Source: Trueperaceae bacterium
Lineage (GTDB): Bacteria > Deinococcota > Deinococci > Deinococcales > Trueperaceae
Direction of reading: 5' to 3'
Assembly (NCBI GenBank): GCA_002707365.1
Contig: PAMQ01000014.1
Location: 10,638-74,637 of the forward strand
Length of the DNA: 64,000 nucleotides
Translations under genes and position numbers: made by a program
Part shown: positions 14,193 through 56,306 of the stretch, piece after piece
Layout of the letters: each line of letters begins with the position of its first letter
Position numbering within the stretch: the first letter of the stretch is position 1
Notes under the pieces: generated by a model
Database searches by the model: none
Seen by the model: the letters and a program-made list of their open reading frames with translations, nothing else
Told to the model about the DNA's origin: nothing

Positions 14193-14633
14193 CTAATCTG
14201 AGATCTTATCAACCATTAAGGGTAAAACTTTTGGCGAGACAGACTGTTTCCACTCCAGGGCATTCAGGTAGGCCCAGAGTAGCGCCTTAGACGCAGAGAC
14301 TAAGCTTGCGCTGTGACGTTGGCCTGCTTGTATGACGCTGGCTTCACTAAGTCCACGAGCGTAGGTGAGTCGCCAGTGCATCTCGTGTCGTGATAGTGCT
14401 CCTTGCACGCAGCTTTGTATAACGGCATATTCAAGGGTTTTATTAGTAGTTTCTTTAAGCTCGTACCAGAACTGCTCACAGGGAGTCTCTAATTTCAGAA
14501 CGTAAGCTGTTCTGTCGTAAACAGAGTCGTGAATAGAGCGGCATATTTCAGGTTCGAGCTCATTCCAGCGCTTAAGAAGACTCTTTAGTGAGTAGTGACT
14601 CTCTTTTGAAGCAGGTATGAATGAGATTGTCAT
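14193..14633 (-). CDS. Unknown protein, last gene of the L33/FAD island
   Basis: A 146-residue soluble protein, rich in Glu, Leu and Ser, with no motif I recognise. It overlaps the FAD oxidoreductase gene by four bases (ATGA), so the two are translationally coupled and probably work together. Helical content is likely high. The downstream GH32-like gene starts just after its stop, and this is where the compositionally distinct island ends. Confidence 0.6.
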   Translation of the reverse strand: MTISFIPASKESHYSLKSLLKRWNELEPEICRSIHDSVYDRTAYVLKLETPCEQFWYELKETTNKTLEYAVIQSCVQGALSRHEMHWRLTYARGLSEASVIQAGQRHSASLVSASKALLWAYLNALEWKQSVSPKVLPLMVDKISD

Positions 14634-15856
14634 GCGGTACTTACGTCCGTAGCATCGGTTAAACCTGCGTCTTGTAGAATGGTACGCATTAACAGCGGAA
14701 GATAAAGCGTTGCGCTAGCTAATGTGTTGGCTGCGTGACCTGCTCTGGTCAGGGCGTGCACGCCCAGCGGGTAGATAGGAGGTAAGTTTTTCCAGCGTCC
14801 GGCGTCGTCCAGGATGGGGTAGTGGCGTGCTATACCGCTCACGATGATGGGCGCTTTATAGTTCCGCGCAGCATCCGTCAAATAGGGCAAGTTGCGCAAT
14901 TTGGGACTTGCGCCTGTGGTCGCCACAAGGTGATCAAAACGCTCGGCTTGCATGCCTTTGGTTGTTTTGTAGGATAACTGCACTTTGCCCCATAATTCTG
15001 TGGCGTATTGAACGCGGGCGTGGTGTAGTACGCGTACACCTATCGCTTTGGCCCTAGCGGCCATGCCCGGCATGGCTGAGGCGGGTATACGGGGCTTTTT
15101 GAGCGAGCGTTTGCGCTCTCGCCAAGATAGCTGGCTAAAAGATTGTATGAACTCTTTTTGAAACCAGAAAGGCGCAAAAGGTAGTTGACGCTCGATAGGG
15201 TTCGAGTAGCGAGACAGTAGTGTAACCTTTGCTCCTGCTTCGGCAAGCTTGATGGCTGCTTCCCAAGTGGCGACGTTACTCGAACCTAGAATCGCTATAT
15301 TGGCATCTTTAAAATCCCCGTTTGCATAGTCGAGCTGAAAAGCGTGGTGTGCCTGCTCCTGTGGTAAATGCTGCCACCAGACGTGCCAGGGTCGGGGGAT
15401 GTATAAGTGGGGTGTAAGCCCGGTAGCTAGCAGTACCACACGGGTGCTGAAGCGGCAGCCGTCAGAGAGATGAACCTGCCAGCCGTGCTGAAGAGGCTTG
15501 AGTTGCGTTACGCTGGCCCCAATGACTTGCTGGTCAGCTTTTGCACGTTTGGCAACGTAGTTAGCGTAGCGCCAGAAGGCGGCGCGAGGAGCGCGCTGTG
15601 ATTCGGTGGTTGTCTCGTTAAAGCGGTCGCAGGAGGCGTCCTGCAAACTGTAAACGTTCGCAAGGGGTTGGCTGCCGTCCTCGTCAACAAAAGCTGTCAT
15701 GGCGCGCTCGGTTTGCCCTAGGCTGAAGTCCAGCTCTCTTGGGCTGCGCAAGAAATCCGTTGCTTGCATTGGCCCGTCCGGGCCGTAAAGCGGTAGCCAA
15801 TGGGGTGCGGGGTCCACCAAGGCATAATTGCCGTTCCCTCGTGCTTGCATCAACAT
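14630..15856 (-). CDS. FAD/NAD(P)-binding oxidoreductase with missing start
   Basis: Flavoprotein of the two-Rossmann type (pyridine nucleotide-disulfide or flavin monooxygenase-like). The second nucleotide fold is clear (AILGSSNVATWEAA) and the ATG motif (LLATG) is present. The first fold, VVGGRGPHGL, lies upstream of the first usable ATG: the same frame stays open to 15970 and reads LDIPITVVGGRGPHGLVLH, but that stretch has no ATG, GTG or TTG. Either a rare start (ATC at 15907) is used, or a base change or frameshift has disabled the start. GC content is visibly higher than in flanking genes. Coupled by ATGA to the next gene. Confidence 0.65.
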   Translation of the reverse strand: MLMQARGNGNYALVDPAPHWLPLYGPDGPMQATDFLRSPRELDFSLGQTERAMTAFVDEDGSQPLANVYSLQDASCDRFNETTTESQRAPRAAFWRYANYVAKRAKADQQVIGASVTQLKPLQHGWQVHLSDGCRFSTRVVLLATGLTPHLYIPRPWHVWWQHLPQEQAHHAFQLDYANGDFKDANIAILGSSNVATWEAAIKLAEAGAKVTLLSRYSNPIERQLPFAPFWFQKEFIQSFSQLSWRERKRSLKKPRIPASAMPGMAARAKAIGVRVLHHARVQYATELWGKVQLSYKTTKGMQAERFDHLVATTGASPKLRNLPYLTDAARNYKAPIIVSGIARHYPILDDAGRWKNLPPIYPLGVHALTRAGHAANTLASATLYLPLLMRTILQDAGLTDATDVSTA

Positions 15857-15909
15857 GTGCAGGACAAGTCCGTGGGGGCCGCGTCCGCCGACTACTGTGA
15901 TGGGGATAT

Positions 15910-16182
15910 CTAACTCGGGAATTGCGCCAACCTCGGTGATAGATGGTTGTGCCGAGAATAGCCAGGTTTGCTAGGGGATGAAGCGTTAAATCCAGCGTCA
16001 AGCTGCGGTGAAACGCGAAAGTCCGCTAGCGTGGCTTCGTAGCTCTGGTGTGTCTTCGGGTTAGTAATGAAGCAGCAAATTGTTGTCCCTTTAACGGTGT
16101 CGAAGGTGACGACCCTACTTTGAACCTCAAAGTTAGATAAGTCTGTGTTTGTCATGAAAGAACGTTCCATCGAAATTGTCAT
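15910..16182 (-). CDS. Unknown 90-residue protein in the L33 operon
   Basis: Small protein whose ATG overlaps the rpmG stop (TAATG), which is strong evidence for translation. The middle (FDTVKGTTICCFITNPKT) is beta-like with a Cys pair; the last 25 residues are of low complexity and may reflect a frameshift, since the flavoprotein frame begins in the same place. It is not any ribosomal protein I know. Context suggests a role in the same stress response as the L33 copy. Confidence 0.5.
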   Translation of the reverse strand: MTISMERSFMTNTDLSNFEVQSRVVTFDTVKGTTICCFITNPKTHQSYEATLADFRVSPQLDAGFNASSPSKPGYSRHNHLSPRLAQFPS

Positions 16183-16346: not shown

Positions 16347-16357
16347 GGTTACCCCTA

Positions 16358-16395
16358 TCCTGCCTTATTGAGAATTGTTTCTCAATAAGGCAGGA
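16358..16395. promoter_or_regulatory. Perfect 17-bp inverted repeat, probable operator of the rpmG operon
   Basis: Two perfect 17-base arms (TCCTGCCTTATTGAGAA and its complement) with a TTGT loop end 12 nt before the rpmG start. The core TTGAGAA/TTCTCAA has the size and AT-rich symmetry of Fur/Zur family boxes. No U-run follows on either strand, which argues against a terminator. It could also fold in the 5' leader of the mRNA. Confidence 0.6.
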
Positions 16396-16398
16396 GTA

Positions 16399-16429
16399 AT
16401 ACTAACCTATTAGATGGTCGATGTGTCAA
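16399..16429 (-). promoter_or_regulatory. Candidate promoter of the rpmG operon
   Basis: On the minus strand TTGACA (16424-16429) is a perfect -35 box, and TAGTAT (16399-16404) is a fair -10 box with a 19-nt spacer, slightly long. Transcription would begin within the palindrome at 16358-16395, a typical place for a repressor operator. Confidence 0.4.
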
Positions 16430-17020
16430 CCTAGCGCCAGAAAGCTAGGCTTAATTCAGACCGCTACCTCTCAAAGAACGGCTGCACAGTAATGAAGCCG
16501 AGGCTTACAAAAGAAAGGCAGTAGGTTTTCCAGCTGTCGTTACTCTGGAGAGCTGCATTTGGATAGCACTTATCGATAATTATTCTCAAAAGGGACAAAT
16601 GTTTGTGGCATTTATCTGTAGAAACTGGAGCTATGAAACGTGATACTTCACACCGCCGGGCCTTAAGGCAAGCTTTGGAAGCTACACGGGGCCACCTAGT
16701 TCCCAGGTGGCTTTAAGGTACAAGACCATGAGTTGACTCTCTACGGACGTTATCCTACCTACCAAGCAGCTTAGATTTCGCGGAGTATCGATACGTTGAT
16801 CGTGAGTCGTGATGTGAGAGGATCTCATGTTCTCTTGCGTATCCAATATCGGTAACAAAGGTAGTGAGTAAAGTACACACGTCTCTGGGCGTCATCAACA
16901 AACACCAAAAGAATGTTAAGAGAAGAATTAGTTGCTGGTACTTATATTAGGCTAATCGATTTTATGCATCGGCACGGAAAACCTCGTTAAAAGCAAATTA
17001 GATATTTGGGCCCAGCCTGC
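16430..17020. other. Intergenic region between the HAD gene and the rpmG operon
   Basis: No convincing gene. It holds a hairpin at 16691-16711 (GCCACCT / AGGTGGC, seven-base loop) followed by TTTAAG, a possible 27-codon frame at 16633-16716 with a poor ribosome site, and copy A of the dispersed repeat (16883-16935). Confidence 0.5.
16883..16935 (-). repeat. Dispersed repeat, copy A
   Basis: On the minus strand this contains CTTAACATTCTTTTGGTGTT followed by TGTTGATGACGCCCAGAG. It matches copies at 27380-27449 and 32319-32360, and shares the upstream GCAACTAA and TTCTTC words with the second copy, with a 12-base gap. It begins about 85 nt after the HAD gene stop. Substitutions fall mostly at every third base of the frame reading LVFVDDAQ. 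Confidence 0.5.
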
Positions 17021-51801: not shown

Positions 51802-53282
51802 GGAGTGGTCGTAACTCCCTTTGCAACCCTATTAACCACGTAATCGACAAGTGTTTCAATGTCTGAATCCGATAGCTTTAAGTCGAATCCTGGCATAAGA
51901 TTGCGGCCAAACCGGATGATGTCACGCACGTTGGCTTTCCGTTCGGCATTTGGGTTGTTGGCCAGGGTGGTTCCTGAACCACCCTGGCCAAATGAACCAT
52001 GACACGTTGCGCAGTGGCTTTCGTAAAGTTGCTGACCTGAAAATGATGACGCCTCGAGCAGCATCTCTGCCCTAGCAATAAGATCAGGGACTGGTCCAGA
52101 TTCAATGGCGATTATTAGGTAGGATTCCCAAGTTTCTATAGCTTTGGCAAGGTTTTGCAGGTTGAAGTAACAGTGACCTAACATTAGTAGGCTTTCAGCG
52201 TCAGCTTCACCAATTGTTGTTAGGCGTTCCAACAGAACAACGGCTTCTTGAAGTCTGCCTGACAGGAAAAGAGATTGGCTAGCTCGCTTAAGTGCAAGTG
52301 GCTGGTCAGGATTTGATTCAGCCAATATTTGGAAATAGGTTTCGGTTGCGAGTAACTCATTGTCATGATTCCAGAGAGCTTCTGCCAAAGCTAGTCGGTT
52401 GCGTTCACTCGGGTTTTTTAAAGCCGTGGCATAAAGGGGTTCAATCTCACTTAGTGTTTCAAGACGAGCACTTATGTCAGACTCATCTTCTCCTCCTGAT
52501 TGAATTAAAAACTCCTGCCATGCTTGCCGGGCCTTGGTTAATCGTCCTAGTGAGTAGTAGAGCTCTCCTAGCGTGAAAAGGGTTTTAAGGTCCGTGGGTT
52601 CTACGGCTCTTGATAACTCTAATAGGTCAGTAGCGCCTTCTAGATTAGTTTGGAGGGTTAGGAAACCAAGGCGGCGGTATGCAATAGCTGGTACGGGCAG
52701 AGAACCATTAACTATCCTTTGATATATTTCTCCTGCCTCAACAACTTCACCTAGTTGCCAATAGGCATCAGCTAACGCTAGGAGGTTTTCGTTATTAGGT
52801 TTCTTGGTTGCTGCTCGTTGTAACTGCTTGATGGTACGACTTGCTTCTAAGTCTTTATCAAAGAAGGTGGTGATAGAAGAGTTTCCTACCCGGGGAAGCA
52901 CAAACGAACTTAGGGAGGCTGCGCTCGCTACAACAAATACCAACAAACTTATCAGCACTACCGGGGGACGACTTGAGACTGCTATTTGGCGAGAGGTCTG
53001 CGATCCGTCCAGGTCATGTTCTCGGGTATCGAGTGCCCGAAGGACTAGAGTAGCTTTTGCTTCGTAACGAGCTCTTAGGGCATCACGTTGGCTTTTAGGA
53101 AGATCTTCGCGAGATTCCAGTTCTAAGATGGCTTGGAAAAGAGCATCCCTTTCCTCTTCAAGATCTTGGAGAACAGGGTCATGAAGATCCGGTAAGGGGT
53201 CGGATTGATTAGAAAAGATCATTGGTAGGGCTACGTAAGCAGTAAGAATTACCGTGAACAAAACCAGGAGGATTTCGGTCAT
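51798..53282 (-). CDS. CcmI-like TPR protein fused to a c-type cytochrome domain
   Basis: 494-residue fusion. Residues 1-130 have two helices flanking a cytosolic coiled coil, the CcmI plan. Tetratricopeptide repeats run from about 145 to 400, and the C-terminus is a class I cytochrome c domain with CATCH (424-428) and an axial Met in MPGFD. CcmI presents apocytochrome to the heme lyase; here the chaperone carries its own heme domain. It overlaps ccmH and the Rieske gene by ATGA junctions. Confidence 0.88.
   Translation of the reverse strand: MTEILLVLFTVILTAYVALPMIFSNQSDPLPDLHDPVLQDLEEERDALFQAILELESREDLPKSQRDALRARYEAKATLVLRALDTREHDLDGSQTSRQIAVSSRPPVVLISLLVFVVASAASLSSFVLPRVGNSSITTFFDKDLEASRTIKQLQRAATKKPNNENLLALADAYWQLGEVVEAGEIYQRIVNGSLPVPAIAYRRLGFLTLQTNLEGATDLLELSRAVEPTDLKTLFTLGELYYSLGRLTKARQAWQEFLIQSGGEDESDISARLETLSEIEPLYATALKNPSERNRLALAEALWNHDNELLATETYFQILAESNPDQPLALKRASQSLFLSGRLQEAVVLLERLTTIGEADAESLLMLGHCYFNLQNLAKAIETWESYLIIAIESGPVPDLIARAEMLLEASSFSGQQLYESHCATCHGSFGQGGSGTTLANNPNAERKANVRDIIRFGRNLMPGFDLKLSDSDIETLVDYVVNRVAKGVTTTP
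51959..51990. repeat. Perfect 15-bp palindrome inside the CcmI/cytochrome gene
   Basis: TGGCCAGGGTGGTTC and its exact complement are separated by two bases. It encodes the Gly-rich loop FGQGGSGTTLAN just after the CATCH heme motif. Confidence 0.75.
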
Positions 53283-54312: not shown

Positions 54313-56306
54313 GGTTTCAGCTTTCTCGATTTTTTGCGATGATTACTCGTTTCACCTGTTGGGTAAAGAGCAAAGCCTGTCCCTAACACCACTATTAGGC
54401 CACCGACCCAAATCCAGGCAATTAGTGGGCTCTGTATAGCTCGGATTACGACAAAGTCTGCATCAGGATCAATTGTACTAGCGATGCTTAGATAAAGGTC
54501 GTGCTGAAACCTGTAAAGCACAGCTGGTGAAGGCACTAGTTGGGAGTTCTGGCCAAACATATTCAATCGTGGTCTTAATGTGGCTAACCTTTTTCCGTTA
54601 CGCTCAATTAACACCTCAGCACCAGCACTGATTCCCCTCGGGGTCCGTCTCATGAAGTGGTCGATAGCTATTAGTTCATATGCCTGGAAAGGTACAGCGG
54701 TGCCGAAGTCTAAACGGACCTGTTCATCGATACGGAATGCTGAGCTAGCCATTACCCCTAAGGACACTACGACTATGCCAAAGTGCACAATCATGCTGCC
54801 AAAGCGTCGACGATTTTCAAACGGATAACTGCGCAAGATAGCCACGATGGGCTGTTTAGATATTTTTGCTCGTGGGACGATCACCCCCAAAAGCAATAAG
54901 ACGAGACTAATAATGTTGTACCCTGCCAAACCTAGGGTCAGCAGTGGGTAGACACCTCGGAGGCCTAGCGCGAATCCAATTAACCCAACAATAAGGCCGC
55001 CACCTATAAGCCAAGTTAAGTTAGTCCATAATTTTTGATTGTTGGCACGGCGCCAAGGTAATAGCGGCCCTATGCCCATTAGAAAAAGCACAAGCATCCA
55101 AAGAGGGAGAGTGACCTGATCAAAGAAGGGTGCGCCTACCGTTACTTTGTTCCCACTTATTGCTTCTACGATAAGTGGGAACAAAGTTCCCAAAAGGATT
55201 GTAAAGGCGATAGCGAGGAAAAATAGATTGCCAGCCAAGATACTACTTTCGCGACTTACGGTTGCATCAAGTTCCGCCCGATCTCTAACTTGATCCCATC
55301 GAAGAGCAATTAGCCCAAATGCGGTAATTACAACAACCACAAAGAAAACAAGGAAGATTGGGCCGACTGGTCCATCCCCAAATGCGTGAACCGAAGATAT
55401 GATTCCAGATCGGATCAGGAAGGTGCCGAGGATTGACAGTGCAAATGTCAGCGTAATTAATAGTGCGTTCCAGGCCTTCAGCATATGGCGGCGCTGTTGC
55501 ACCTGCACGCTGTGGATGAAAGCGGTGGCCGTTAGCCACGGGAGTAAACTCACGTTTTCGACGGGATCCCAGGCCCAGTATCCGCCCCAGCCAAGTACTT
55601 CGTAACTCCACCAACCCCCGGCAATAACACCTGCCGACAAGAATCCCCAGCCTGTAAGAGTCCAGCGACGTGTCTGCGTCATCCATTCGCTACCAGGATT
55701 TCGTACTATTAGTGCTGCCATGGCATAGGCAAATGGGACTGTTAAGCCAACGAATCCCAGGTATAGCAGGACCGGGTGGATCGCCATCATCCAATGATTT
55801 TGGAGCAAGGGATTGGGGCCAGGACCGTCCAAAGGCGGTAATGCTAGTACAACGAAGGGGTTTGCTGCGGTTGCGACTACCCCAAGGAAGAACACCTGTA
55901 CCAATTGCATAATTACAAGGGCCCATGGCCGGAGAGTATTTAAGGGTGCCGTTACGGCAAGTATCGCGCCGTAGAGTGTAAGTAGCCAAGCCCAGAGTAA
56001 TACTGAACCCTCGAGAGCTGCCCAGAGTGTGACGACTTTAACCCATACGGGGGAAGCTATCCTAGATTGTTCAGCTACGTATTGGACACTAAAATCATCA
56101 CTGAGTAGGGCAGCCTCCATAAGTACGATAGCAAGGGTTGTAGCTAGAAAGGTGGCTACAGCAGATAGGCGGGCCGAGGTTTGTAAGCGTGCGTCGTGAC
56201 GTAGGCAGCCGAAAATCCCTGCTATCGCACCGTACAAAGCTAAGGCGGTAGCTAGTAAGGTGCTTCCAGAACCGAGCTGGCCTAGGTTTATTTCAAAAAG
56301 CTGCAC
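54309..56306 (-). CDS. ccmF: Cytochrome c heme lyase subunit CcmF
   Basis: Large polytopic membrane protein (665 residues, about 15 helices) that joins heme from CcmE to apocytochrome c. The tryptophan-rich heme site GWGGYWAWDPVENVSLLPWL is intact, as are the flanking His-containing segments. A perfect 17-bp inverted repeat lies inside the gene (55144-55187). It overlaps ccmG by four bases and follows ccmE by 24 nt. Confidence 0.95.
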   Translation of the reverse strand: MQLFEINLGQLGSGSTLLATALALYGAIAGIFGCLRHDARLQTSARLSAVATFLATTLAIVLMEAALLSDDFSVQYVAEQSRIASPVWVKVVTLWAALEGSVLLWAWLLTLYGAILAVTAPLNTLRPWALVIMQLVQVFFLGVVATAANPFVVLALPPLDGPGPNPLLQNHWMMAIHPVLLYLGFVGLTVPFAYAMAALIVRNPGSEWMTQTRRWTLTGWGFLSAGVIAGGWWSYEVLGWGGYWAWDPVENVSLLPWLTATAFIHSVQVQQRRHMLKAWNALLITLTFALSILGTFLIRSGIISSVHAFGDGPVGPIFLVFFVVVVITAFGLIALRWDQVRDRAELDATVSRESSILAGNLFFLAIAFTILLGTLFPLIVEAISGNKVTVGAPFFDQVTLPLWMLVLFLMGIGPLLPWRRANNQKLWTNLTWLIGGGLIVGLIGFALGLRGVYPLLTLGLAGYNIISLVLLLLGVIVPRAKISKQPIVAILRSYPFENRRRFGSMIVHFGIVVVSLGVMASSAFRIDEQVRLDFGTAVPFQAYELIAIDHFMRRTPRGISAGAEVLIERNGKRLATLRPRLNMFGQNSQLVPSPAVLYRFQHDLYLSIASTIDPDADFVVIRAIQSPLIAWIWVGGLIVVLGTGFALYPTGETSNHRKKSRKLKP
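55144..55187. repeat. Perfect 17-bp inverted repeat inside ccmF
   Basis: ACTTTGTTCCCACTTAT and its exact complement are separated by ten bases. On the mRNA this forms a strong hairpin in the part encoding LFPLIVEAISGNKVT. No U-run follows. Confidence 0.75.

Follow-up and report, generated by a model that had tools for sequence, protein, structure and literature searches.

The 5' flank of rpmG, one of two genes for ribosomal protein L33 in the genome of a Trueperaceae bacterium (Deinococcota, order Deinococcales), raises the question of what a perfect inverted repeat contributes at the head of a ribosomal protein operon. The repeat, TCCTGCCTTATTGAGAA-TTGT-TTCTCAATAAGGCAGGA, is complementary at 17 of 17 bases across a 4-nt loop, exactly as an earlier sequence-only reading had described it, and lies in a window of 64,000 nt (the whole stretch of DNA analysed, C14:10638-74637 of an assembly of 2.08 Mb in 19 contigs, 97% complete). 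That reading noted a resemblance to Fur- or Zur-type symmetry and left two options, the operator of a regulator or a structure in the 5' mRNA. The analysis described here indicates that the palindrome's inner 24-26 bp very probably form the operator of a Zur-type zinc repressor of the Fur family, with the binding protein, the metal and the direction of regulation judged from the genomic context.

The rpmG promoter and operon

The palindrome is situated between a TTGACA-type promoter and the start of rpmG, in agreement with the sequence-only reading (Table 1). The TTGACA and TAGTAT hexamers are separated by 19 nt, and an automatic promoter scan that allows spacers of 16-18 reported no promoter here. 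Transcription is predicted to start at about 16391-16393, within the first bases or at the edge of the palindrome, and the Shine-Dalgarno-like AGGGG is followed, after a gap of 5 nt, by the rpmG ATG. The roughly 600 bp upstream of rpmG (16400-17020) hold no convincing gene or Rfam match. An intrinsic terminator, consisting of a GC-rich stem and a U-run, is ruled out as the identity of the palindrome because neither strand carries a T-run after it; no terminator is predicted there, and the earlier judgement that one was unlikely for want of a U-run holds. A known cis-regulatory RNA element was likewise rejected, as no Rfam covariance model matched the palindrome.

Two further reading frames follow rpmG on the same strand. 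For the first, of 90 residues, no relatives were found by family search or in the relatives' loci examined. The second encodes an FAD/NAD(P)-dependent oxidoreductase and is probably a member of the rpmG operon; in relatives its orthologue is found after rpmG or before zigA. The oxidoreductase frame (14630-15965) possesses no ATG, GTG or TTG at the position where the relatives' genes start, and this gap may reflect an unusual start codon, a frameshift out of the frame at 15910-16182, or an error in the sequence. The L33 encoded in the window is of the zinc-independent (C-) type, without cysteine, and exists beside a tuf-linked paralogue that carries a CxxC...C arrangement (CSEC...YC). The tuf-linked copy (L014:1319-1483) seems to have lost the fourth zinc cysteine, with YCRWD in place of the usual second CxxC. 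Scanning genome contigs with rpmG brought up mostly L33 genes of proteobacteria.

Table 1. Features of the rpmG locus, places of the exact core among the genomes searched, and the candidate regulator gene
Feature	Position	Strand	Basis or context
Perfect 17-4-17 inverted repeat	16358..16395	none	Sequence, RNA fold
Putative conserved operator, CTTATTGAGAATTGTTTCTCAATAAG	16364..16389	none	znuA/mntC box of G007; relatives' rpmG, zigA and regulator boxes
Inner 7-2-7 unit	16369-16384		Within 16364..16389
Outer arm extension, not conserved in relatives	16358..16363 and 16390-16395		Relatives' rpmG upstreams; own zigA box
-35 hexamer TTGACA, rpmG promoter	16424..16429	-	Sequence; TTGAC(A) similarly placed before most relatives' rpmG
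-10-like TAGTAT	16399..16404	-	Sequence
Shine-Dalgarno-like AGGGG, just outside hairpin	16352..16356	-	Sequence
rpmG, cysteine-free L33, 54 aa	16182..16346	-	Pfam Ribosomal_L33 9e-19
ORF overlapping rpmG stop (TAATG), 90 aa, without recognisable family	15910..16182	-	Reading frame
FAD/NAD(P)-dependent oxidoreductase gene	14630..15856, frame open to ~15965	-	Domain match; relatives' gene order
Exact core, own genome (G000)	Two places		Before rpmG-FAD and before zigA
Exact core, G007			Before znuA/mntC-like transporter operon; box CTTATTGAGAATCAGTTCTCAATAAG
Exact core, G028			Before rpmG-zigA
Exact core, G030			Before L33-like gene with zigA
Exact core, G096			Before AztD-like gene
Exact core, G101			Before rpmB-zigA
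Fur-family regulator, 124 aa	G000:C7:4373-4747 (L009:4373-4747)		Pfam FUR 6e-20

Recurrence of the core before zinc genes

A genome scan for the 14-base core, proposed by the sequence-only reading, gives the most direct indication of function. Over 2.08 Mb the exact core TTGAGAAnnnnTTCTCAA occurs at only two places, one preceding rpmG and the other about 15 bp ahead of a gene for a ZigA-type COG0523 GTPase, a count that rules out a common dispersed repeat unrelated to metal genes, the outcome which that reading had set against its own proposal. Searching the genome with TTATTGAGAAnnnnTTCTCAATAA at up to three mismatches yielded four places. Beside the palindrome itself, these comprise TATTGAGAATGCATTCTCAATA at C7:354028, 15 bp before the COG0523 GTPase gene, which the contig end truncates and which matches ZigA over its first 83 positions with 163 bits; a copy of the core with three mismatches at C7:2761, where a ZnuA-family gene starts whose best score is with AztC, 1.6 kb away from a gene for a Fur-family regulator; and a fourth place in an unrelated context. 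A search for more targets in the genome with TTGATAATnnATTATCAA, again with up to three mismatches, gave 8 places as against 10 for the reversed control, and is thus no more than noise apart from the three known sites. The start of contig C7 falls within a znuC-like gene and its end within zigA, so that parts of the zinc genes are absent from the assembly.

The same association extends across the phylum. Among 111 genomes searched with the exact cores TTGAGAAnnnnTTCTCAA and TTGATAATnnATTATCAA, all seven places precede zinc or metal-uptake genes, and the box of G007, CTTATTGAGAATCAGTTCTCAATAAG, is identical to that of the window except in the 4-nt spacer. Considering genes with usable upstream sequence (one further gene, at a contig end, was left out), the box is present before 11 of the 12 cysteine-free rpmG genes that are not linked to tuf or secE, as compared to none of the six that are; counting against the operator reading, one relative, G073, has a cysteine-free rpmG that lacks the box. 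Eight genomes (G075, G076, G079, G080, G081, G103, G109 and G110) possess a regulator orthologue divergent from rpmG and less than 1 kb from it, with the box between the two, and in the Deinococcaceae-like G025, G028 and G031 the box is just before the regulator gene. The boxed operons of G103 and G110 include the FAD oxidoreductase and an AztD-like gene, whose scores of 143 and 162 bits stay below the cut-off, accompanied in G103 by zigA, while the boxed ABC-transporter genes of G007 and G031 score best with the Deinococcus MntC model, below its cut-off. The closest relative, G101, carries a second boxed operon in divergent orientation, made up of an L28 gene and zigA (L100:1903-2190, L157), and in G104-G108 L28 genes are located about 1.3 kb or less from the regulator. 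The gene set behind the box and the linkage to a regulator gene support the Fur/Zur resemblance suspected earlier, and this context points to Zur as the probable binder.

The candidate regulator and its metal

Two Fur-family genes are present in the genome, one, 1.6 kb from where the ZnuA-like gene starts, encoding a protein of 124 residues with CxxC twice and an HHHH motif, the other a protein without such cysteines that may be an alternative binder. The 124-residue protein aligns with the solved structures of Streptomyces coelicolor Zur (7e-14) and Mycobacterium tuberculosis Zur (1.8e-13), and slightly better with a Fur (3e-15). Across 13 regulator orthologues E69, H75-H78, C81, C84, C94, H111, C119 and C122 are invariant, and the Fur-family fold is thus accompanied by the four structural cysteines (C81, C84, C119 and C122). 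In reviewed Zur proteins the sensory site consists of two nitrogen, one oxygen and one sulphur ligand, and C79 is essential in S. coelicolor Zur (PMC6103462). The position aligned with the sensory-site cysteine of the S. coelicolor and M. tuberculosis proteins is not cysteine in the 124-residue regulator, making C94 a candidate sulphur ligand. C94 is invariant in this branch of the Fur family and additional to the four structural cysteines. With the NCBIfam Zur model PRK11639, which we take to represent the enterobacterial type of Zur, the protein obtains 23.4 of 167 bits and does not reach the cut-off; it scores higher with PerR/Fur models, likewise below cut-off.

By its residue positions the regulator also resembles DR0865, its probable counterpart in Deinococcus radiodurans, which has been reported as a manganese regulator (PMC4171365). 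Because the Zur sensory cysteine is missing and DR0865 is reported to be manganese-responsive, the case for zinc rests on the target genes and not on the protein. The box could be the operator of the same Fur-family regulator answering mainly to manganese, in the manner of Mur, or to both metals, a reading consistent with the matching metal-ligand positions of DR0865 and with the MntC-like scores of the boxed transporter genes in G007 and G031. However, the genes that recur with the box, namely those for cysteine-free L33, L28-ZigA, ZigA and AztD-like proteins, are zinc-economy genes, and AztC gives the highest score for the binding protein of this genome; a response mainly to manganese, or to both metals, is improbable.

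Architecture of the operator

The conserved unit of the putative Zur-type operator is an even palindrome, TGA(G/T)AAT-NN-ATT(A/C)TCA, with a 7-2-7 arrangement. When the half-sites TGA(G/T)AAT and ATT(A/C)TCA were sought in 300-nt upstream sequences with spacers of 0-10 and up to two mismatches, a spacer of 2 dominated (9 of 18 L33, 9 of 26 zigA and 5 of 30 regulator upstreams, versus 0-0.2 in shuffles) and the classical 7-1-7 spacer of 1 was found in one L33, no zigA and one regulator upstream, counts that include several congeners and are therefore not phylogenetically independent. A second peak at spacer 8 is due to boxes that have an additional half-site upstream, such as TTGAGAATGAGAGTGCGTTCTCAA, and would fit overlapping sites 6 bp apart. 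The preference for spacer 2 over 1 departs from the published symmetries of Zur boxes (7-1-7, 9-1-9 or 23-bp). Located at the promoter of zinc-economy genes, the palindrome is best classed as a probable Zur-type operator of lineage-specific pattern rather than as a match to a published box.

Relatives retain only about 10-12 bp per arm, often imperfect, and do not conserve the bases that make this hairpin longer. At the outer end of each arm, 6 bp (TCCTGC/GCAGGA) are specific to this genome, and since they are absent from G101 and from the genome's own zigA box, which has 11-bp arms, they represent a local lengthening, possibly produced by quasi-palindrome correction. This pattern bears on whether the palindrome might instead act as a 5' hairpin of the rpmG mRNA, in the role of a stability element or of translational control. 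Folded on the rpmG strand the repeat reaches -29.4 kcal/mol (z = -6.8, with 0 of 200 shuffles as good), in a stem that begins at the predicted 5' end. Yet what relatives keep is a DNA motif with short arms, a motif that also precedes zigA, znuA and the regulator gene, and the AGGGG lies outside a stem that finds no Rfam counterpart. An mRNA hairpin as the primary function is rejected because the outer arm is not conserved, and as an overall reading it is highly improbable; of the two options left by the sequence-only reading, the operator stands, as the box recurs before the same genes, and the mRNA structure is not required.

Perfect hairpins with arms of at least 13 are not rare in this genome, with 3 in the window and 10 more (arms 13-31) in the 400-kb genome sample from which the background was estimated, against none in shuffles. 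Thus perfection alone proves little, and the argument depends on the conserved inner 24-26 bp. Least probable of all is an accidental, functionless hairpin of this common kind. Quasi-palindrome correction could account for the outermost 6 bp on either side, yet different genera and families share the inner 24-26 bp in front of the same genes. Other long perfect hairpins (51958-51991, 55144-55187 and L196:12598-12667, with arms of 16, 17 and 31) are also without a following T-run, and the two in the window sit inside reading frames; quasi-palindrome correction or an assembly artefact may have produced such hairpins.

A model for zinc-dependent control

If the palindrome is a Zur-type operator, ample zinc would lead a metal-loaded regulator dimer, probably of the 124-residue protein, to bind the half-sites TGAGAAA/TGAGAAT. 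As these are immediately downstream of the -10 and over the predicted rpmG transcription start, a bound dimer would block RNA polymerase. Zinc shortage would release the repressor, and the cysteine-free L33 would be made, probably together with the downstream FAD oxidoreductase; the new L33 would take the place of the zinc-binding form from the tuf-linked gene, sparing ribosomal zinc. The same regulator would also switch on the ZigA GTPase and a zinc importer. Control of this kind would extend zinc-starvation control of ribosome composition to the Deinococcota, for which no description was found in the literature searched; nothing relevant turned up on Zur in Truepera either. The present analysis also supplies a searchable operator consensus and enlarges the candidate regulon by a conserved FAD oxidoreductase; to our knowledge, such an enzyme is not known from other Zur regulons.

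A broader and distinctly tentative idea is that the zinc sensors of the Deinococcota form a separate branch of the Fur family, with a sensory site that departs from the standard (perhaps involving C94), an even 7-2-7 operator, an exchange of L33 and in some cases L28, and control of the FAD oxidoreductase. Were this true, DR0865, described as a manganese regulator, would be partly or wholly a zinc regulator. With the operator proposed here, it can be tested directly which metal the Deinococcus 'Mur' regulator senses.

Comparison with known systems

Zur regulons are known from actinobacteria, bacilli, enterobacteria and cyanobacteria (reviewed in PMC6103462), where, as proposed here, palindromic operators cover the promoters of genes for zinc-independent ribosomal proteins, COG0523 GTPases and zinc importers. 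Unlike those boxes, which are odd (7-1-7 or 9-1-9) or of 23 bp, the box of the window is even, with the half-site TGA(G/T)AAT in a 7-2-7 arrangement. A ZigA-type gene directly behind the box is also a feature of the COG0523/ZigA zinc GTPase regulons (PMC2770081), a paper in which Deinococci are not mentioned. The AztABCD zinc import system finds a parallel in the AztC-like binding protein of this genome and the AztD-like genes in relatives' boxed operons, with all of these scores below curated cut-offs. DR0865, or Mur, of D. radiodurans (PMC4171365) belongs to the same phylum and the same Fur family and has matching HHHH and two CxxC pairs, but it is reported to respond to manganese, and the context of the window box argues for zinc. 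The proposed mechanism is one known from other bacteria; in this phylum the box has a slightly different spacing.
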